From the NCBI RefSeq assembly GCF_014656435.1, contig NZ_BNCK01000004.1, positions 1 to 64,000 on the forward strand: 64,000 bases of DNA, read 5' to 3'. The stretch comes from Thalassotalea marina. GTDB taxonomy: Bacteria; Pseudomonadota; Gammaproteobacteria; Enterobacterales; Alteromonadaceae. Positions within the stretch are counted from its first letter, which is position 1. Every line of letters starts with the position of its first letter. Under the pieces are notes generated by a model. It was not told the origin of the DNA. It did not search any database and was given only the letters and a program-made list of their open reading frames with translations. Positions 35,426 to 48,778 of this stretch are shown here, in pieces. The position numbers and the translations under genes were made by a program.

Positions 35426-37849
35426 GTGCATAGCATTACCGGGTTTATATTAACGCGCCAAGCCATTGATACCAGAAAAGGTATTGTGCTGCATTATTGG
35501 TTGAAAACCCCTGACGGTGCCAAACAAATCACAGTGTACGACGAAAAGGCGGTGTTTTTTGTTGAGTCTAATGACAGTGAGCAGGCGATAGCCCTGATAG
35601 AAAATGAAGGTATACGTCTGGCTAAAGTCAATGCGCTTAACTTAAAAACCTTCGCTCAACAGCCTGTTACAGCGCTTTATTTTGATTTATTGCGTGATTA
35701 TTATCGAGCTCGTGAGTGTTTAAAAGATCATAAAATTAAATGCTACGAAGATGATTTTCGACCTGAAGATCGTTTTTTAATGGAACGCTTTGTCACGGCA
35801 AGTGCTGAATTTAGTATTGAATACGTGATAGACGAAGATGCAATTCATCCACATTATGTCGCGAAGAAGTGCCGCAGTGTTGACAAAGATGTTCACCAGG
35901 TTTCCTTGTCTATGGTGTCATTGGATCTTGAATGTTCACTGCAAGGAGAGCTGTTTTCTGTTGGCTTATATTCACATGAACTTAAAGGGCAACAGGTCAA
36001 AACTGTCTTTATGATAGGTGATGAAAGTGTCACTAGCTCTGAAAAATTAAAACAAGACGAAATAGATATTACCCTTGAACAAGTGATTTGGTGTCGCGAT
36101 GAAAAACACTTGTTACATTCTTTAATTGATTGGCTCAATGTCTACGATCCCGATGTCATCATCGGGTGGAATGTGGTGCAGTTTGACTTTAATTTATTGC
36201 AAAAACGCTGTCAGTTACACCATATCGAATTTGTCATTGGTCGAGACAAACGTCCACCAAGGTGGCGTAAACAACGTACCAGTGAACAGCACTTTATTGA
36301 TATTAGTGGTCGTGTGGTAATAGATGGTATTGATGTGTTAAAAACGGCCACTTATAACTTTGATAGCTTTTCATTGGAGAATGTCTCGAGTGAATTATTA
36401 GGGTTACATAAAAAAGTTGATGATGCTGACAATCGAATAAAAGAGATCCTCGATAACTTTACCCATGACAAATTAGCGCTTGCAGCCTATAACCTGCAAG
36501 ATTGTCGCTTAGTCACATTAATTTTTGAAAAAACACAAATGTTAGAGTTTGCCATGTTACGAGCTGAACTCACAGGGCTGAGCCTTGATAGAGTCGGCGG
36601 TTCAGTAGCGGCGTTTACTAATCTTTATTTACCCAAATTACACCGTGCAGGTTATGTCGCTCCAAACTTGGGTGACGGTATGAAAGGCTTAGTATCACCT
36701 GGCGGCTTTGTAATGGAATCAATTCCAGGTTTATACAAAAACGTACTAGTACTGGATTTTAAAAGCCTATATCCCAGTATTATTCGCTCGTTCAATATTG
36801 ATCCAATGGGTATGGTTGAAGGGCTGCGTGATAAAAGTAATGCAATTGAAGGTTTTGATGGTGCTTATTTTTCAAGAGATAAACACTTTCTTCCCGATAT
36901 TATCAACCAGTTGTGGCGTGAACGTGATAAAGCCAAAATAGACAATAATGCTGCATTGTCGCAAGCAATTAAAATTATCATGAATTCTTTTTATGGTGTA
37001 TTAGGCTCTACCGGCTGTCGTTTCTTTGACCCACGTTTATCAGGTTCAATTACGAAAAGGGGGCACGAGTTACTTAATACCACCAAAGATTGGATAGAAG
37101 ATAAGGGTTATCAAGTCATTTATGGTGATACTGACTCTATTTTTGTGCACGTTGGTGATGATTTATCTGAAAAAGAGTGCAACGCTTTAGGTAAAACTCT
37201 GGCTAGCTATATCAATGAAAAATGGCAGCAAACGTTAAAAGCTCGCTTTGCCATAGAAAGTGAATTAGAGCTCGAATTTGAAACCCACTTTTTACAGTTC
37301 TTTATGCCAACCATACGTGGTGCTGATGTTGGAACAAAAAAGCGCTACGCAGGCTTAGTCAATAAAAATGGTCAGCAGCAGCTGGTGTTTAAGGGGCTGG
37401 AAAGTGTCAGAACAGATTGGACACAACTAGCAAAAAACTTTCAACGTGAGCTTTATCAAAAAGTATTTGCACAGCAACCCGTTGAAGAATACATCCAACA
37501 AGTGGTTAAACAAACTCGCAATGGGGAGCTTGACGACCAATTAGTGTACCGCAAACGTATTCGAAGAAAACTAGAGCAATATGTAAAAAACGTGCCTCCA
37601 CACATTAAAGCGGCTCGCTTAGCGGATGAACAAAATAAAAAAGCCGGTAAACCTTTAAAGTTTCAAAACAGAGGTACTGTTGAATACTATTTAACAACGT
37701 CTGGGCCTCAAGCCAAAGGCTATGTCAACGCACCATTAGATTACGATTTATATGTTGAACGTCAGCTTAAATCAGTTGCTGATGCTATCCTACCGTTTAT
37801 CGACACCAACTTTGACAAAATTGTTGATGTGCAGATGCAGTTGTTTTAA
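35426..37849 (+). CDS. polB: DNA polymerase II (family B)
   Basis: The 807-residue protein starts at GTG, with GAGG 16 bases upstream. Exonuclease motifs are visible as SLDLECS (about 168), VIIGWNVVQFDF and YNLQDCRLV. Polymerase motifs are DFKSLYPSIIR, KIIMNSFYGVLGS, YGDTDSIFV and KKRYAGL. It is slightly longer than the 783 residues of E. coli Pol II. It restarts replication at damaged forks and belongs to the SOS response. Its last 60 bases overlap the end of the BCCT gene on the other strand. Confidence 0.95.
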   Translation: MHSITGFILTRQAIDTRKGIVLHYWLKTPDGAKQITVYDEKAVFFVESNDSEQAIALIENEGIRLAKVNALNLKTFAQQPVTALYFDLLRDYYRARECLKDHKIKCYEDDFRPEDRFLMERFVTASAEFSIEYVIDEDAIHPHYVAKKCRSVDKDVHQVSLSMVSLDLECSLQGELFSVGLYSHELKGQQVKTVFMIGDESVTSSEKLKQDEIDITLEQVIWCRDEKHLLHSLIDWLNVYDPDVIIGWNVVQFDFNLLQKRCQLHHIEFVIGRDKRPPRWRKQRTSEQHFIDISGRVVIDGIDVLKTATYNFDSFSLENVSSELLGLHKKVDDADNRIKEILDNFTHDKLALAAYNLQDCRLVTLIFEKTQMLEFAMLRAELTGLSLDRVGGSVAAFTNLYLPKLHRAGYVAPNLGDGMKGLVSPGGFVMESIPGLYKNVLVLDFKSLYPSIIRSFNIDPMGMVEGLRDKSNAIEGFDGAYFSRDKHFLPDIINQLWRERDKAKIDNNAALSQAIKIIMNSFYGVLGSTGCRFFDPRLSGSITKRGHELLNTTKDWIEDKGYQVIYGDTDSIFVHVGDDLSEKECNALGKTLASYINEKWQQTLKARFAIESELELEFETHFLQFFMPTIRGADVGTKKRYAGLVNKNGQQQLVFKGLESVRTDWTQLAKNFQRELYQKVFAQQPVEEYIQQVVKQTRNGELDDQLVYRKRIRRKLEQYVKNVPPHIKAARLADEQNKKAGKPLKFQNRGTVEYYLTTSGPQAKGYVNAPLDYDLYVERQLKSVADAILPFIDTNFDKIVDVQMQLF

Positions 37850-38968
37850 TCGAGTTGTCGTTAAAAACTCCAAAAGACCTAACAGGGCAATTAAAATTAC
37901 CAGCAATGCAGTCCATTGGATAAACAACCATTGTTCTTTAAACATGGCCGTTAACATTAACAGTAGTATGGAGTTAAACAGGACAAATTTTTTCATACCT
38001 AAGCGCTTGCGATCGATGGATAACGATTGGCTATAGTGCGCCACCATAAAATCTAACGAATTAACAACAAACAGCAGCGCCAGTAATACCATGGTTATAG
38101 CAATAACCGGCGACATAACTGCTTGAATGATAAAGTGATGATATAAAACGCTAAACCAAATAGCTGTTGGTATCAAAGGTATTAATACCATGGTTAAAAG
38201 TAGTTTGAAGGGCGACATTTGATTAACAAATTTAGCGACAAATTGCCCTAATAAAATAGTCCAGGTTAACCACCATGCTAAATAAAATTCATGATAGTCA
38301 TTAAAGGGCAAAATAAACTGATGAAAGTTTGCTAAGTAACCTCTGGTTGCTGCCAAACTTGTGACTAGATCTTGGCTTGAAAAGTCATTTGTTATCCCGA
38401 TCACCAATATTAGTGCGCAGAATAACAATACACTAACTTGACTTAATCGGGTCATAAAGCGGACTTTAGTACTGACTAATAAAGCAAATATGATCATGAA
38501 AAAGAGCAAAGCAAATAAAACTAACTCGCTAATTTCAGTCAAGAAATAATCTGTGTACTGTGGAATTAGTTGTAAAAATAACGACAGGGTAAATGCACAG
38601 GTCATCAACACAACTAAGCTGTTGACTAAACGAATAGAAGGGCGTTTAAACAATTGTAACTTTGGCTCTAAGGTTAAAAAATATAGCGTAGAAACAAAAT
38701 ATAAAAACCAGGCGGTTAATCCCCAAAAGCCAAGCTCGATGGCAAGTGGATTGACAAACCCATAGCTGGGGTCGCTTTGATAGCTAGGAAATTCGACTAA
38801 TGGCATCAGAATAAAGCCACTGTCCAATCCCGAAGTAAACAAAATTGCAACGAGTACCGCAGATGAGCTGGGCGTATCTCCTGACAATTTTACTTTTCTA
38901 TATCGCCAACATAAAAAAATACCAACAACGATAAACAGTAAAATTCCAACAGATATCAACAACCGCAT
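37790..38968 (-). CDS. BCCT-family (betaine/choline-type) transporter, short form
   Basis: The 392-residue protein has about ten to eleven membrane segments. EFYLAWWLTWTILLGQFVAKF matches the BCCT signature around the substrate tryptophans, and NPLAIELGFWGLTAWFLYF matches TM4-5 of that family. It is shorter than the usual 500 or more residues and diverged, so it could be degraded or specialised. It lies 86 bases downstream of betI on the same strand. Its C-terminus overlaps the polB 3-prime end by 60 bases. Confidence 0.65.
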   Translation of the reverse strand: MRLLISVGILLFIVVGIFLCWRYRKVKLSGDTPSSSAVLVAILFTSGLDSGFILMPLVEFPSYQSDPSYGFVNPLAIELGFWGLTAWFLYFVSTLYFLTLEPKLQLFKRPSIRLVNSLVVLMTCAFTLSLFLQLIPQYTDYFLTEISELVLFALLFFMIIFALLVSTKVRFMTRLSQVSVLLFCALILVIGITNDFSSQDLVTSLAATRGYLANFHQFILPFNDYHEFYLAWWLTWTILLGQFVAKFVNQMSPFKLLLTMVLIPLIPTAIWFSVLYHHFIIQAVMSPVIAITMVLLALLFVVNSLDFMVAHYSQSLSIDRKRLGMKKFVLFNSILLLMLTAMFKEQWLFIQWTALLVILIALLGLLEFLTTTRLKQLHLHINNFVKVGVDKR

Positions 38969-39054
38969 CTTAAAATATGTACTTTTTTAAAAACACGACA
39001 TTTTAGCTTCAAATTAAGACAGTTAAATGACACTTATTACCAATGACATAAATC

Positions 39055-39648
39055 TTAGTACTTGTAGCGCTCAATTAGGTCGTCTGCCAATTGTTGGCAA
39101 TATATGCCAGCCTGTTTAAATTTTTCTTCTGAAGAATGCGCAAGTGCGCAACGCAACCATTGACCGTCAATTTGGGCTGCGAGAATTTGAGTCACCATAT
39201 CAAGATGTTCATATTTAATTAACTGCTTGAGGGAAAACTTTAAATTGCTAGCCAAACGAGCATGATTTAATTTTTGTAGTTTTCTAAATTCATCACTGTG
39301 CATTGACTGTACCCAAAAGGACAGCCAAGCCACTGCCGCCTTATTGCTGCTTTGTGTACTGGTAAAATTTGCGTTGATAATATAACTGATACGTTGGTTA
39401 GCACTGGGTTTTTTGTCTTTAAACTGCGCGAGGAAATCTATTTTTAACTGCGCCAACAAATACAGGGTAGTTTCTTTAAGTAAGCCAGTTTTACCACCAA
39501 AATAGTGAGAAATAATACCTGTAGAAACACCGGCGAGCTTTGCAATGCTAACGATGGTTGTTCCTTGCAAGCCATGCTCTTCGATTGAGGCTAGCGTTGC
39601 TTCTATCAGTTGTTGTTTTCTAATTTTTTCCATACCAACTTTGGGCAT
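39055..39648 (-). CDS. betI: TetR-family regulator BetI
   Basis: The 197-residue protein starts MPKVGMEKIRKQQLIEATL and contains AGVSTGIISHYFGGKTGLL, almost the BetI consensus; AWLSFWVQSMHS and IDGQWLRCAL also match E. coli BetI. BetI represses choline-to-betaine genes and is released by choline. No betA or betB is in the window. It is divergent from a TonB receptor gene across a 238-base gap that contains a BetI-type palindrome, and upstream of a BCCT transporter. Confidence 0.9.
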   Translation of the reverse strand: MPKVGMEKIRKQQLIEATLASIEEHGLQGTTIVSIAKLAGVSTGIISHYFGGKTGLLKETTLYLLAQLKIDFLAQFKDKKPSANQRISYIINANFTSTQSSNKAAVAWLSFWVQSMHSDEFRKLQKLNHARLASNLKFSLKQLIKYEHLDMVTQILAAQIDGQWLRCALAHSSEEKFKQAGIYCQQLADDLIERYKY

Positions 39649-39778
39649 CTAACTATCCTTTTTGCACTTAATAGCACTTGTACATATTAATGTCATAAGA
39701 CGTTTATCTTACCGTCATGTTCAAGTAAAACTTAATTGATAGTATGGTAAGTCTTTATAAATACAAGTTAAATTTTTA

Positions 39779-39798
39779 TTAATTGAACGTTCAATTAA
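39779..39798. promoter_or_regulatory. BetI operator (20-bp perfect palindrome)
   Basis: TTAATTGAACGTTCAATTAA is a perfect palindrome 131 bases before betI and 89 bases before the TonB receptor start. It matches the TTGAACGTTCAA-type site known for BetI. Position and sequence suggest autoregulation and control of the receptor operon. Confidence 0.8.
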
Positions 39799-39886
39799 AA
39801 ATAACAAATCTGTAACAAACACACTTTACACTGCTCGCCGATTCAAAACGATAACACTAAAAACACAATATTTAGGTGGGTAAACC

Positions 39887-42181
39887 ATGTCTCTCAAAAC
39901 AACAACAAAATCAACGTTAGCTATTGCTATTTCATTAGCATTAACGCCATTGGCTTATGCTGACGATACAACAAAAGAAGAAAAGCAAATTGAAGAAGTC
40001 GCCGTTATTGCAAAGAAACTTTCTTATGCAAATAACACGGTAGATCAAAACATGATCGACCAACAAGCACCAATGACTAGCGTGTTAGCCATTATGGATA
40101 ACTTACCTGGCATTAACATTAATGAAGGTGACGCATTTGGTGGTGACGATTGGTCTACATCAATAACCATGCGTGGTTTTGCTATTGACGGTCAGCAACA
40201 ACAATTAGGTATGACGGTCGATGGTATTCCAAACGGTGGTTCAAACTACGGTGGTGGAGCAAAAGCTAACCGTTATTTAGATACTGACAATGTGCAAACA
40301 ATAGAAGTTGGCCAAGGTACATCAGACATTTCATCTGCTTCGTTAGATGCTCTAGGTGGTACGTTTAACTTTGTGAGTAAAGATCCTGAAATGCAGGAAA
40401 GCACTACAATTTCATATACGACAGGTTCACATGACGCTCAGCGCTATTTTGCACGTTACGAAACTGGTGAAATATTAAAAAATACCTTTGCTTACATTAG
40501 CTATTCTGATTCATCAAATAGCCGTTGGGTAGGTAAAGGCTCTAATGGTGGTGCGAAAAAGCAACACGCTGAAATGAAGTTTGTGTCTACTCAAGGTGAT
40601 TTAAATATTACTGGTCGTATTTCATACGATGACGTAGCAGAAGATAACTACAACAGCGTAACGGTTGAACAATTTAACGCAACGTCTGATTGGGATCATT
40701 TAACATGGAACTGGACTGGTATTCCTCATTTTGACCAAATGTTTGCTGAAGGCTGGTCAACACTTCGCGAAAATACCTTAGGTTATTTGAAATTTGAATA
40801 TGCGATGTCTGACGTGACAACGTTTGAAGTTACACCTTATTACCACAAAAACAAAGGCCGTGGTGACTGGATCCCTCCTTACATCATGCACCCAGTAGAT
40901 GCTAACGGCAACTTAACCGATAAAGGCGGCGAAGCGGAATTCAGATATGGTTTTACCGATCAAAATGGTAACCCATTAATGCCTGCTGAAGGTTGTACCG
41001 CAAATTACAGCTGGCCTTGGAATTCAGGTCCAGGTTTACATGCTGCATGTTATGACCGTGATGCCATTCCAGTGATGTCATACCGCCATACACACTATGC
41101 CAAAGAGCGCACAGGTTTTACTGCTAAAGCACAAACAACGTTCGATAACCACGACTTGGTAGCTGGTATTTGGATGGAAACATCAGAGCGTGATGAACAC
41201 CGTGATTGGCATAAAGTAATAGATGCACGTGTCTATCACCATTTTGATGCAAAACCATACTGGACACAGTACGAACTAACTTTTGACCAAGAAACAGTTA
41301 AATGGTACTTACAAGACACCATTACATTTGACGATCTAACGGTTAATTTAGGTGTTCAGCAATACCTAGTTGATGTTGAAAAAGATGACCACTACGACTC
41401 GTCTAAAGACGTGAAAGTAGACAGTGATTCTGACGTATTGTTTAGCGGTGGTGTGCAATATCAGCTATCGCCATCAACTGAAATATTTGCTGGTTACAGT
41501 GAAAACTTCTCGGCAATTAAAGATGGTGTTTTAGAGCGTGACGCGTCTACAGTGACTGAGATAGAGCCAGAAACTGCTGACAACATCGACTTTGGTGTAC
41601 GTTATTTTGGTGAAGACTTAAGCTTAACAGCAACCTTCTATAAGATTGAATTTAACAACCGTCTTCGCTTTGTTTCACCAGGCAGCAGTGATGCTGACGG
41701 TATCGATTATGCAATTGGTACTAACGGTTCATACATTAACGAAGGTGGCATTGACTCTGATGGTCTTGAAATAGGCGCCACTTACAAAGTTAATAACAAC
41801 TGGGAGCTGTACGCTTCTTTCACTAAAAACAACTCTGAATACAACGATAATATTGGCGACATTAAAAAAGGCCAAACTGTTATCGACTCTGTAGAAGATA
41901 TGTGGGTTGTTTCAGCTAATTATTTTGACGGTGGATTACGCTTTGGTGCATCAACTAAATATACAGGTGAGCGCGGCGAAGCTGATGATTTTATTGTGAC
42001 TGACATGAACTTAGGTTATACCGTGGAGTTTACTGGTAATGGCGTTAAGTCTGTCGATTTAGCTTTAGTTGTAAATAACTTGTTTGACGAAGAGTATTTA
42101 TCTTCAGGTGATGGTCGTGGTAATACGTATTACATTGGCGCACCTCGCACAACAACGTTTACTGTTAACGTAAACTTTTAA
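39887..42181 (+). CDS. TonB-dependent outer-membrane receptor
   Basis: The 764-residue protein has a signal peptide (cleavage about 26, AYA-DD), a TonB-box-like EEVAVIA (about 36-42), a plug domain (about 60-165, VLAIMDNLPGININ) and a 22-strand-type barrel ending in VNVNF. The terminal phenylalanine is the assembly signal. GGTGG lies nine bases before the ATG. The two phosphoesterase genes follow on the same strand, and the BetI-type operator lies upstream, so its ligand may be a choline-containing compound; this is inference. No iron-siderophore hallmark is evident. Confidence 0.88.
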   Translation: MSLKTTTKSTLAIAISLALTPLAYADDTTKEEKQIEEVAVIAKKLSYANNTVDQNMIDQQAPMTSVLAIMDNLPGININEGDAFGGDDWSTSITMRGFAIDGQQQQLGMTVDGIPNGGSNYGGGAKANRYLDTDNVQTIEVGQGTSDISSASLDALGGTFNFVSKDPEMQESTTISYTTGSHDAQRYFARYETGEILKNTFAYISYSDSSNSRWVGKGSNGGAKKQHAEMKFVSTQGDLNITGRISYDDVAEDNYNSVTVEQFNATSDWDHLTWNWTGIPHFDQMFAEGWSTLRENTLGYLKFEYAMSDVTTFEVTPYYHKNKGRGDWIPPYIMHPVDANGNLTDKGGEAEFRYGFTDQNGNPLMPAEGCTANYSWPWNSGPGLHAACYDRDAIPVMSYRHTHYAKERTGFTAKAQTTFDNHDLVAGIWMETSERDEHRDWHKVIDARVYHHFDAKPYWTQYELTFDQETVKWYLQDTITFDDLTVNLGVQQYLVDVEKDDHYDSSKDVKVDSDSDVLFSGGVQYQLSPSTEIFAGYSENFSAIKDGVLERDASTVTEIEPETADNIDFGVRYFGEDLSLTATFYKIEFNNRLRFVSPGSSDADGIDYAIGTNGSYINEGGIDSDGLEIGATYKVNNNWELYASFTKNNSEYNDNIGDIKKGQTVIDSVEDMWVVSANYFDGGLRFGASTKYTGERGEADDFIVTDMNLGYTVEFTGNGVKSVDLALVVNNLFDEEYLSSGDGRGNTYYIGAPRTTTFTVNVNF

Positions 42182-42253
42182 TGTTAATGGAAGGTGGCAG
42201 TTGCTGCCTTCCGTTTGTTTTCCTTGCAGTATTTAAAAAGGTAATAAATAACA

Positions 42254-43372
42254 ATGAAAAAACTCACCTTAACCACTTTATTATTAACCTCAACGTTTAG
42301 CATGGCACAAGAACGTAATTTAGTTTTAGTGACCATAGATGGCTTACGTTGGCAGGAAGTATTCCAAGGAAAACAACAAGATTTATTAGACGATAAAAAT
42401 TTCACCCATCATAAAAATGGCTTACTAAAAACCATTGAATCGCAAACAACAAATCAAGCAAAAGAAACGTTAATGCCATTTGTTTGGTCAACGATTGCAA
42501 AAAATGGCACCTTAGTGGGTGATAGAAACCAAGCATCAAATATGTCAGTGGCTAATCAATGGCATTTTTCTTACCCAGGTTACAGCGAAATTTTTACTGG
42601 TGTAACCAACCCAACTCTTGATTCAAATGCCAAAAAACTCAACCCTGAAACCAGTTTTTTAGAGTGGCTTAAAAACAACAAAGGTTATAAAAATACCGCA
42701 GCCTTTGGCAGTTGGGATGTATTTCCCTATATTTTAAATGCCCAGCGCAGTGGCTTATATGTAAACGCTGGTTTTGATTCAGCACCGGCAAAATACCACA
42801 GTGACGCGGTTACCTTGTTAAATGAATTACAGCAGGAAATTCCAAGTCCGTGGCACAACGTTCGTTTAGACAGTTTTACCCACCGATTTGCTATTGATTA
42901 CATCAAAGAAAACAAACCACGTGTTGTGTCGATCTCCTATGGTGAAACTGATGACTTTGCCCATGATGGACGCTACGACAACTATCTTAATGCCGCTCAC
43001 CGAACCGACGCCTTTATCGCAGATTTATGGCAAACCTTGCAATCGATGGAGCAGTACAAAAACAATACAAACTTACTTATAGTGACCGATCACGGCCGAG
43101 GTCAAACGGCAAAAGACTGGCAGCATCATGCGTCTAAACAAGCGGTGCAAGCCTATATGAAAGGTTTAAAAGAACATAAAGAAGGTGTTATTGGCTCTGC
43201 ACATATTTGGTTTGCTGCCCTTGGACCTGACATTAAACCACAGGGCGTACTTAAAACATCTCAAGAGCTCTATCAAAAACAAGTGGCGGCCACTGCTTTA
43301 ACTTTATTAGATGAAAACGTATCTGAATTTAACCCTAAAGCTGGCAAGCCAATGTTAGAGGTGATCAAATAA
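42254..43372 (+). CDS. Secreted phosphodiesterase of the alkaline phosphatase/NPP superfamily
   Basis: The 372-residue protein has a signal peptide (cleavage about 18, SMA-QE). Metal and nucleophile sites are recognisable: VTIDGLRW (about 26-33), WHFSYPGYSEIFTG with the probable nucleophile serine, SYGETDDFAHDGRYDNY, and VTDHGRG. These are the type I phosphodiesterase/nucleotide pyrophosphatase pattern. It lies between the receptor gene and the PhoD gene, overlapping the latter by one base (TAATG). ENPP6-like members release choline from choline phosphodiesters, which would fit a BetI-controlled locus; the substrate is not shown by the sequence. Confidence 0.8.
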   Translation: MKKLTLTTLLLTSTFSMAQERNLVLVTIDGLRWQEVFQGKQQDLLDDKNFTHHKNGLLKTIESQTTNQAKETLMPFVWSTIAKNGTLVGDRNQASNMSVANQWHFSYPGYSEIFTGVTNPTLDSNAKKLNPETSFLEWLKNNKGYKNTAAFGSWDVFPYILNAQRSGLYVNAGFDSAPAKYHSDAVTLLNELQQEIPSPWHNVRLDSFTHRFAIDYIKENKPRVVSISYGETDDFAHDGRYDNYLNAAHRTDAFIADLWQTLQSMEQYKNNTNLLIVTDHGRGQTAKDWQHHASKQAVQAYMKGLKEHKEGVIGSAHIWFAALGPDIKPQGVLKTSQELYQKQVAATALTLLDENVSEFNPKAGKPMLEVIK

Positions 43373-44403
43373 TGAAAAAAACATTACTTGCTGGTTTAGT
43401 TGCCACCTTAAGCTTTAATACCTTGGCCATAGACAAAATTTATTTTGGCTCTTGTGGCAAACAATACAAAGAGATGCCAATTTTTAATGCGATAGCTAAA
43501 GATAACCCTGATTTATTTATCTTTTTAGGTGATAACATTTACGGTGACACCGAAGACATGCAAGAGTTAGCCGATAAATATCAAACATTGGCCAACCACT
43601 CAGGCTTTAAAAAGCTAAAAGCAACCGCTGAATTGATCGCTATTTGGGACGACCATGATTACGGTGAAAACGATGCGGGTAAAGAATATCCACAAAAAGA
43701 AGCTTCTAAAAAAATCATGTTAGATTTTTGGCAAGAGCCAAAAGACTCACCGCGTTATCAACGTGATGGCATTTATACCAGCTATATGTACGGCAACAAA
43801 AATCAAGAAGTGCAAGTAATTCTGCCTGATCTTCGTTGGAATAGAGATGAGCTGCATCAAGTTTCGAAGCTCGATTATGTTGCTAAACGAGCACCTATTA
43901 ATATGGGGCCATACAAGGTATCACCCGATGCTAAGGCGTCCATGTTAGGTGAAAAACAATGGCAATGGTTGGAACAAGAGCTGCTTAAACCTGCAAAAAT
44001 AAAAATTATTGGTTCAAGTTTACAATTGCTACCAGAGTTTACCGGTTGGGAGTCTTGGGCAAACTTTCCAAATGACAGAAAGCGCTTACTTAACTTTATT
44101 GAAAAGCACGCTATCTCAGGCGTTATCATCATTAGTGGAGATACCCATTGGGGAGAAACCTCATACGTTAAAAATGGTAAAGGTTATGGCCTTTGGGAAA
44201 TTACCAGTTCAGGGTTAAGTGAAAAATGGAAAGATGTTAGCCCTAATGAACATAGAGTAGGTGCATTTACGCATGACGTTAACTATGGCTTTATTGAAAT
44301 AGACTGGCAACAGGCAGATCCACTTATTGAAATTGGCTTAAAAGACGTTAACGGAACGGTATTTAGTCAACAATCCTTTCGACTTTCCTCCTTACAACCG
44401 TAA
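43372..44403 (+). CDS. PhoD-like secreted phosphatase/phosphodiesterase
   Basis: The 343-residue protein has a signal peptide (cleavage about 19, TLA-ID). PhoD-type metal motifs are present: IYFGSCGK, FLGDNIYGD, IWDDHDYGEND and IISGDTHWGE. Family members hydrolyse phosphomono- and diesters with calcium/iron centres. It is co-translated with the phosphodiesterase before it, so the two may act in series on one extracellular phosphate compound. A terminator follows directly. Confidence 0.88.
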   Translation: MKKTLLAGLVATLSFNTLAIDKIYFGSCGKQYKEMPIFNAIAKDNPDLFIFLGDNIYGDTEDMQELADKYQTLANHSGFKKLKATAELIAIWDDHDYGENDAGKEYPQKEASKKIMLDFWQEPKDSPRYQRDGIYTSYMYGNKNQEVQVILPDLRWNRDELHQVSKLDYVAKRAPINMGPYKVSPDAKASMLGEKQWQWLEQELLKPAKIKIIGSSLQLLPEFTGWESWANFPNDRKRLLNFIEKHAISGVIIISGDTHWGETSYVKNGKGYGLWEITSSGLSEKWKDVSPNEHRVGAFTHDVNYGFIEIDWQQADPLIEIGLKDVNGTVFSQQSFRLSSLQP

Positions 44404-44415
44404 GCGCAGGGTTTT

Positions 44416-44446
44416 GCCTGAGTTGTTATAACTCAGGCTTTTTTTA
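44416..44446 (+). terminator. Rho-independent terminator of the receptor/phosphatase operon
   Basis: GCCTGAGTT/AACTCAGGC with a five-base loop and seven T residues, 13 bases after the PhoD stop. Confidence 0.9.
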
Positions 44447-47786: not shown

Positions 47787-48752
47787 TTAACTAAGATCTG
47801 ACAACGGGCTTCTTACACCATTGGCACCATGTTCTATCACATGTGTGTAAATCTGCGTTGTGCGCACATCGGTGTGGCCAAGTTGTTCTTGTACGGTACG
47901 AATATCTGCGCCGCGTTGTAATAAGTGAGTTGCAAACGAATGACGTAAAGTGTGGCAGGTAATACGCTTATTCAGTTGTAATGAGTTACTCGCTTTGTGA
48001 ATGGCTTTACGCAAAACAGTTTCATGTAAATGATGCCGTCTCACCTTATTCACCTCAGGGTCAATACTTAAACGCGTAGCAGGAAACAAATAATGCCAGT
48101 TAAATTCTTTAGGGGCATTTGGGTATTTACGAGCTAAGGCAAAAGGTAGATAAACGCCATGATAACTAGGATTTCTAATATCTCGCTGAAATAAACAATT
48201 AGCCAATTTAATTTGTTCTTTTAATGAATAAAACAACTCTTTAGCTAATGTAGTTCTGCGATGTTTACCGCCTTTACCATGCCAAACTTGTATACTGCAA
48301 TAATTAAAATCAATGTCTTGAATACGTAATCTAACTACTTCCATTAACCGCAACCCACTAGCATACATGAGTTGGCATGCTAATCTGTTTTGTACAGGAA
48401 TTGCTTCAAGTAATAGCTTAACCTCACTTTTAGTTAACACAGTTGGTAGGTTAGGCTGAACTCTACATTTGTTAAACTGTAAATCACAAGACAGAGGTTG
48501 ATTAAAGTAGTCCTTATACAGATAGGAAAGTGCATTTAAAGCTAACGATTGAGTTCTTGGCGCTACATTTTTAACATTTGATAAATAGTTTAAGAAAAAC
48601 TCGACCTCTGCATTATGACAGCTTAGCGGGTGGCGCTTGTTGTTAAAGTTTATAAAATACTTGATCCAATACAAGTAGCTTTCAATAGTTCTTTTGGCAT
48701 AACGCCTAGTCCACATATGTTCTTTTAGTGAAGATAAAAATGGGGAGTTCAT
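47787..48752 (-). CDS. intI: Integron integrase IntI
   Basis: The tyrosine recombinase of about 321 residues has the active-site residues in SGLRLMEVV (Arg), HTLRHSFATHLLQRG (His, Arg) and GHTDVRTTQIYTH (His, Tyr). The integron-specific insertion is present as ALARKYPNAPKEFNWHYLFPA and separates IntI from XerC/D. The ATG at 48752 is preferred, with AAGGA upstream; a TTG three codons earlier is possible. It excises and inserts cassettes by acting on folded attC strands. A perfect LexA box lies 27 bases upstream. Confidence 0.96.
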   Translation of the reverse strand: MNSPFLSSLKEHMWTRRYAKRTIESYLYWIKYFINFNNKRHPLSCHNAEVEFFLNYLSNVKNVAPRTQSLALNALSYLYKDYFNQPLSCDLQFNKCRVQPNLPTVLTKSEVKLLLEAIPVQNRLACQLMYASGLRLMEVVRLRIQDIDFNYCSIQVWHGKGGKHRRTTLAKELFYSLKEQIKLANCLFQRDIRNPSYHGVYLPFALARKYPNAPKEFNWHYLFPATRLSIDPEVNKVRRHHLHETVLRKAIHKASNSLQLNKRITCHTLRHSFATHLLQRGADIRTVQEQLGHTDVRTTQIYTHVIEHGANGVRSPLSDLS

Positions 48753-48778
48753 TGTGACCAAATTCCTTTTTGGTTGTG

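Follow-up and report, generated by a model that had tools for sequence, protein, structure and literature searches.

Here, we describe a locus in a 64-kb stretch of the Thalassotalea marina genome (NZ_BNCK01000004.1, positions 1 to 64,000; hereafter the window), in which a perfect palindrome separates the repressor gene betI and a BCCT-like transporter gene from an operon encoding a TonB-dependent outer-membrane receptor and two secreted phosphoesterases, one of the NPP type and one PhoD-like. The palindrome, the order of the five genes and their coordinates had been given in an earlier note on this DNA, and all were reproduced in the window (Table 1). Sec signal peptides were apparent by eye at the N-termini of the receptor, the NPP-type protein and the PhoD-like protein. 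No sigma-70 promoter was found by a simple scan of the betI/receptor intergenic region. The locus is probably a BetI-controlled module that acquires choline from phosphate esters, a reading to which we give a probability of about two in three; the comparative evidence is strong for its regulatory part, and its substrate part is inferred.

Table 1. Genes and sequence features of the betI/receptor locus in the window.
Feature	Position	Strand	Remarks
Short divergent BCCT-like transporter gene, 392 aa	37790-38968	-	Behind betI, same strand
betI, gene of a predicted choline-responsive TetR-type repressor	39055-39648	-	TIGR03384 and NF001978 above cut-off
Pho-box-like array, three half-sites	39690-39718	+	16/21 positions matched; candidate second control
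BetI operator (predicted), perfect 20-bp palindrome	39779-39798	strand-neutral	88 bp upstream of receptor ATG
TonB-dependent outer-membrane receptor gene	39887-42181	+	PF00593, PF07715
13-bp stem-loop, receptor/NPP gap	42186-42215	+	Putative partial terminator
Secreted alkaline-phosphatase-superfamily enzyme gene (NPP/phosphodiesterase type)	42254-43372	+	PF01663, PF00884
Secreted PhoD-like phosphoesterase gene	43372-44403	+	PF09423
Terminator-like stem-loop closing the receptor operon	44416-44438	+	10-bp stem, then T run

The BetI operator and the genes behind it in relatives

The window BetI scored above both equivalog cut-offs (TIGR03384, 209.1 versus 201.3; NF001978, 220.5 versus 118) and shows 44% identity to its E. 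coli counterpart over 179 residues. The operator, TTAATTGAACGTTCAATTAA, was found once, where 0.01 matches with up to three mismatches are expected per 64 kb, and the exact site is the sole one within one mismatch in the 4.87-Mb genome. The betI/betT gap of E. coli K-12 holds ATTGGACGTTCAAT, with one mismatch to the 14-bp core of the window site, ATTGAACGTTCAAT, and the identical operator word stands upstream of betI-betB-betA-BCCT operons in relatives. The footprinted box of Ruegeria BetI1 is given as ATTGACG-CGTCAAT in the accessible part of the source (PMC12442346). By sequence comparison, the window palindrome is thus a predicted BetI box, as the earlier note had proposed; the same word before betIBA of relatives, where that note had advised looking for betAB, and the core in E. 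coli betI/betT bear the proposal out. Weaker matches in the window's own genome were discarded as background: the core within two mismatches occurred 57 times on the forward strand versus 53 for the control, and the three places with a single core mismatch had neighbors without a reference-protein match and no 20-mer site within four mismatches.

The 20-mer within one mismatch was present in 88 of the 395 genomes of the window's family; its reversed control gave none among the matches listed. A BCCT-like gene was found in 83 of these 88 box-bearing genomes (Fisher's test, 1e-48) and an NPP gene in 41 (5.6e-7), the totals for the family being 121 genomes with a BCCT-like gene (E 1e-40) and 99 with NPP relatives (E 1e-60). 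In an order-wide sample of 394 genomes, 56 had the 20-mer, including 50 from other families than the window's. Twenty-eight stretches from 26 of these 50 genomes were read; most of the boxes there stand before betI, betIBA or a BCCT-like gene, including one between betIBA and a full-length BCCT gene. Exceptions are boxes without an adjoining reference gene (the first site of L364; L383) and boxes within a called frame (L358, L383, L385). No box in these 28 stretches was upstream of a relative of the window's receptor (E 1e-8). Both the operator and the gene order, which the earlier note had suggested searching for, recur in the family, and the box occurs order-wide as well.

What stands behind the box (up to two mismatches) was recorded in a census of overlapping sets, 31 rows from 30 short loci and 54 rows from longer loci, covering loci picked for an NPP gene, a BCCT-like gene or a box and a part of their box positions rather than whole genomes. 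No census box reaches deeper than 90 bp into a called gene. A receptor, betI or a hydrolase was found within 500 bp of the box in all rows except L302, which is cut off by its contig end. L030 has the order box, receptor, NPP, PhoD, betI, betB, betA, BCCT-like gene. The same order without NPP was found in ten loci (L172, L173, L175, L306, L307, L309, L310, L314, L315, L316), and without NPP and PhoD in three (L183, L297, L298). Eight loci share the layout of the window, with betI, box, then receptor and PhoD with or without NPP (L028, L110, L114, L115, L144, L185, L186, L311). betI lies downstream of the cassette in L124 and does not adjoin it in L140, L145, L322 and L323, where the box is upstream of the cassette; in L179, a receptor near a bet operon has no box upstream of itself. 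Named box-bearing examples include a Thalassotalea metagenome assembly (L189) and Pseudoalteromonas flavipulchra (L200). The BetA and BetI proteins of L030 scored above their equivalog cut-offs, and its aldehyde dehydrogenase passed NF009725 (806 versus 593) but not TIGR01804 (642 versus 668.6). The tie of receptor, phosphoesterases and BCCT transporter to choline, which the earlier note had drawn from one locus, is upheld by the presence of receptor and PhoD genes within betIBA-BCCT operons of relatives.

Other hydrolases were also found behind the box. L301 (8000-17511) has a box, a PhoA-type alkaline phosphatase (PF00245), a DUF3422 gene, a second box where betI begins, and then betB, betA and a BCCT-like gene. 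In L300 (4189-7155; short copy L272), a 988-aa purple-acid-phosphatase-like protein is encoded 173 bp behind the box, on a different contig from the betI-BCCT locus of the same genome (G129). A CehA/McbA metallohydrolase gene (744-757 aa) directly follows the box in L303 (4842-7076), L306 (11418-13691) and L307 (3513-5786), the latter two proteins being 44-45% identical to that of L303; we know of no role for this type of enzyme in choline metabolism. The BetI box is repeatedly paired with a receptor and with several phosphoesterase-type families.

Transporter, receptor and secreted enzymes

Members of the BCCT-like family are short, at 378-421 aa in 48 rows. With a three-member family profile, the best PDB match was a chain named "High-affinity choline transport protein" (1.5e-10). 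W82, W87, Y90, W232, W233 and W236 are identical in 48 of 48 aligned members, and this region of the profile aligns to the choline transporter chain. These six positions match the BCCT aromatic cage as it is known from BetP, and the cage is predicted to be intact.

The receptors were compared over 84 cassettes, with a box (up to two mismatches, 350 bp upstream) in 28 and a best site of five mismatches or worse in 56. A PhoD match was found in 59 of the 65 NPP-bearing cassettes. The 19 NPP-less cassettes carried a box in 18 cases, these loci having been fetched for the box or the BCCT-like gene. On a receptor tree built by a quick method, with support from the Shimodaira-Hasegawa-like approximate likelihood ratio test only, the window receptor fell into a clade of nine rows that all carry the box (support 98). 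The box label required seven changes on this tree, at least five of them forced by well-supported branches, which points to repeated joining or separation of box and cassette.

The NPP-type protein matched PF01663 (34.0, cut-off 23) and PF00884 (31.7, cut-off 25). D29, S106, D233, H237, D279, H280 and H292 are conserved without exception in 25 sequences spanning several phyla; by motif, Ser106 is presumably the nucleophile and the other six residues presumably the metal ligands. Its structure model (predicted local distance difference test score, pLDDT, 91) has a predicted alkaline-phosphatase-superfamily fold with the complete predicted ligand set. Among the matches listed, the nearest fold was Xac NPP, with a template modeling (TM) score of about 0.5, followed by sulfatases, LtaS, choline sulfatase and PafA, and a PDB sequence search with the protein gave no match at 1e-3. 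Because the fold matches are mixed, the protein is not placeable in a characterized family. The PhoD-like protein matched PF09423 at 77.6 bits, and its model (pLDDT 88.5) was predicted to be closest to the PhoD structure 2yeq (TMq 0.73).

Among the top 80 NPP loci from named genomes, a receptor gene was directly upstream in 21 and a SusC- and SusD-sized gene pair preceded NPP in 13, mostly of Bacteroidota, one such pair being confirmed by Pfam (L218, 3057-9083); the enzyme has there been paired independently with an outer-membrane importer. An importer beside an NPP-type enzyme thus recurs beyond the window's family. Variants of the enzyme genes were also seen. In L032 (8218-10323), one reading frame of roughly 700 aa encodes both NPP-type and PhoD-like domains, and L158, with its NPP match in a 702-aa open frame, is probably fused likewise, judged by length. 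In L035 (8452-9640, genome G011), the NPP gene is split over two frames, and the receptor and PhoD frames are open.

Choline acquisition and phosphate control

Under the choline reading, BetI on the palindrome would shut both the betI-BCCT and the receptor-NPP-PhoD operons when no choline is present. A choline phosphodiester or monoester would pass the outer membrane through the receptor; glycerophosphocholine and phosphocholine are candidates, as is a larger headgroup compound. Hydrolysis by the NPP-type and PhoD-like enzymes, either periplasmic or on the cell surface, would release glycerol, phosphate and choline, the last of which would enter via the BCCT-like carrier and relieve BetI. The substrate, the direction of transport, the order of cleavage and the induction by choline are all inferred here, and so is the assignment of the receptor to choline phosphoesters; to our knowledge, no TonB-dependent receptor for such compounds has been described.

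Several observations qualify this reading or weigh against it. The BCCT-like protein scored 23.2 bits with PF02028, under the gathering cut-off of 27; the transporter of the earlier note is retained on its PDB-profile match and conserved aromatic positions, but as a divergent 392-aa form below the Pfam threshold. No betA was found in the window's genome, 100% complete by computed figure (best 33 bits versus a cut-off of 732), and no convincing betB (best 486 bits versus 642 for the L030 protein). Rieske-type choline oxidation was considered as the missing step and rejected, as the genome has no PF00848 match. With no betA and no convincing betB, the route is incomplete in this genome, and the "complete" uptake route of the earlier note does not hold. 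The window receptor matched the siderophore model TIGR01783 weakly (129.6, cut-off 223.5). NPP loci were read in 71 of the 99 NPP-bearing genomes, the window included, and six of the 71 had no such receptor adjoining (L108, L159, L160, L163, L164, L165). NPP is lacking in the receptor-PhoD-betIBA operons and is thus not essential to a BetI-linked form. All four congeners compared lack the NPP gene, the BCCT-like gene and the box, which makes the distribution of the locus patchy within the genus itself. The PhoD and NPP folds leave the substrate unfixed, and sequence cannot discriminate between glycerophosphocholine, phosphocholine and another substrate. Finally, the box is present in 10 of the 65 NPP-bearing cassettes and missing from 55, and the window has a Pho-box-like array of its own.

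Phosphate control was assessed with a Pho-box consensus, with five altered consensuses and 447 unrelated upstream regions as controls. Two half-sites at 10/14 or better were found in 30 of 43 dereplicated box-less receptor upstreams versus 37 of the 447 background regions; the altered consensuses gave 14, 8, 13, 9 and 2 of 43, which are above background, so composition accounts for some of the excess. Box-bearing upstreams reached this score in 8 of 23 cases (altered consensuses, 0-5 of 23). Without dereplication of the receptor upstreams, three half-sites at 15/21 or better were found in 18 of the 56 that lack a box, in 4 of the 28 that have one and in 1 of 447 background regions, with 0-8 of 56 box-less upstreams for the altered consensuses. 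Any 10-mer word was shared by at most 9 of the 56 box-less upstreams. The Pho-box scores suggest PhoB control in lineages without the BetI box, where the cassette seems to act as a phosphorus scavenger.

With two half-sites, the match upstream of the window receptor is weak (10/14, a score reached by 37 of 447 background regions), but with three half-sites the array ATGTCATAAGACGTTTATCTTACCGTCAT scores 16/21, which none of the 447 background upstreams reaches. This array slightly weakens the choline reading and strengthens the phosphate alternative. Beside the BetI box, it makes dual control possible, and the window locus may answer to both phosphate and choline. The alternative of phosphate limitation named in the earlier note is thus partly alive: most sampled cassettes are box-less and enriched in Pho-like sites, and the window has its own array, set beside a BetI box.

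Were the locus chiefly for phosphorus scavenging, that is, general uptake and hydrolysis of organophosphates with phosphodiesters at large, such as nucleotides or lipid headgroups, as the substrates and choline control as an overlay, the 55 box-less NPP cassettes, the Pho-like enrichment upstream of them and the window's 16/21 array would be accounted for, as would the Sus-type pairs before NPP in 13 of the best 80 loci, which resemble the PUS clusters described in the accessible part of PMC8115612. The window array, however, lies 169-197 bp away from the start of the receptor gene, its middle half-site is weak, and a score of 15 is reached there by two altered consensuses whose half-sites share shifted words with the true consensus, whereas the BetI box is perfect; moreover, phosphorus alone hardly explains receptor and PhoD genes inside betIBA operons. 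We consider this explanation unlikely. The family as a whole looks like a phosphorus-scavenging cassette that won or lost choline control several times. A tentative account, somewhat short of even odds, would join both sides: a phosphate-starvation outer-membrane cassette was repeatedly put under, or freed from, BetI, some members, perhaps the window's, are dual-controlled, and the receptor takes choline phosphoesters. In this account, a scavenger of phosphorus would have become one of choline.

It is also unlikely that the module is decaying or substrate-switched in the window's lineage, with BetI and the BCCT-like protein kept without BetA and BetB. betA was above cut-off in six of 14 genomes tested, and not in G000, G018, G112, G030, G104 and G129; no full-length betA match was found in G000 or G112 among the 14. 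On the BCCT-like tree, the window copy groups on long branches with its counterparts from G112, G030 and G104, and the copies of G018 and G129 make up a second such group. No betA adjoins the gene in either group, and the long branches make their placement unsure. Against decay, the operator is perfect, the frames are intact, and the catalytic and cage residues are conserved, and the full-length betA-like proteins of G018, G030, G104 and G129 could still oxidize choline; such below-cut-off matches were found in G018, G030, G092, G104, G129 and G175 (best 472-584 bits). Import of iron or a ferric chelate by the receptor, for example as metal supply for PhoD with its operon membership incidental, is very improbable. 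PhoD enzymes use iron, and the best NCBIfam matches of the receptor are siderophore and heme receptor models, yet every one of these matches is below cut-off, and the receptor accompanies NPP, PhoD or bet genes in 84 rows, which were selected for that.

The choline reading shares elements with known systems. BetI, its box and a BCCT choline carrier are common to betIBA-betT of E. coli, Acinetobacter and Vibrio, and BetI is described as controlling transporters in the accessible part of PMC7876524; the E. coli stretch read has no outer-membrane receptor or phosphoesterases, and the window's genome differs in its missing bet genes. BetI over a choline-ester hydrolase is found in betI1-betC of Ruegeria pomeroyi (choline-O-sulfate genes; PMC12442346, accessible part) and in betICBA of Rhizobiaceae, mentioned in the accessible part of PMC7876524, but these alphaproteobacterial systems have a sulfatase where the window has phosphoesterases, and the term TonB is absent from PMC12442346 as far as it is accessible. 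The Flavobacterium PUS clusters place a TonB-type importer beside phosphodiesterases and phosphomonoesterases but are of the SusCD type and induced by phosphate depletion, with no BetI or choline link in the accessible text (PMC8115612). In P. aeruginosa, PchP, a phosphatase acting on phosphorylcholine, is controlled through a choline metabolite, but by another regulator, GbdR, and no TonB receptor is mentioned in the accessible part (PMC3170909). A Shewanella regulon paper classes BetI under osmotic protection (PMC3223726, accessible part). The earlier note knew of no described system of this composition, and none was found in the literature searched for BetI, glycerophosphocholine or phosphocholine together with TonB, at the level of titles and abstract starts and with most subscription papers beyond reach; a computed RegPrecise prediction of part of the regulon may exist.

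Algal membranes and osmolytes supply choline phosphoesters, a source of carbon, nitrogen and phosphorus in the sea. If the choline reading is true, a receptor and hydrolase module under BetI would link this pool directly to osmolyte metabolism. The alternation of phosphate and choline control is a natural experiment in regulatory rewiring.

Outside the locus, an integron integrase gene was found in the window at 47787-48761 on the minus strand (TIGR02249, 438.6 bits versus a cut-off of 265).

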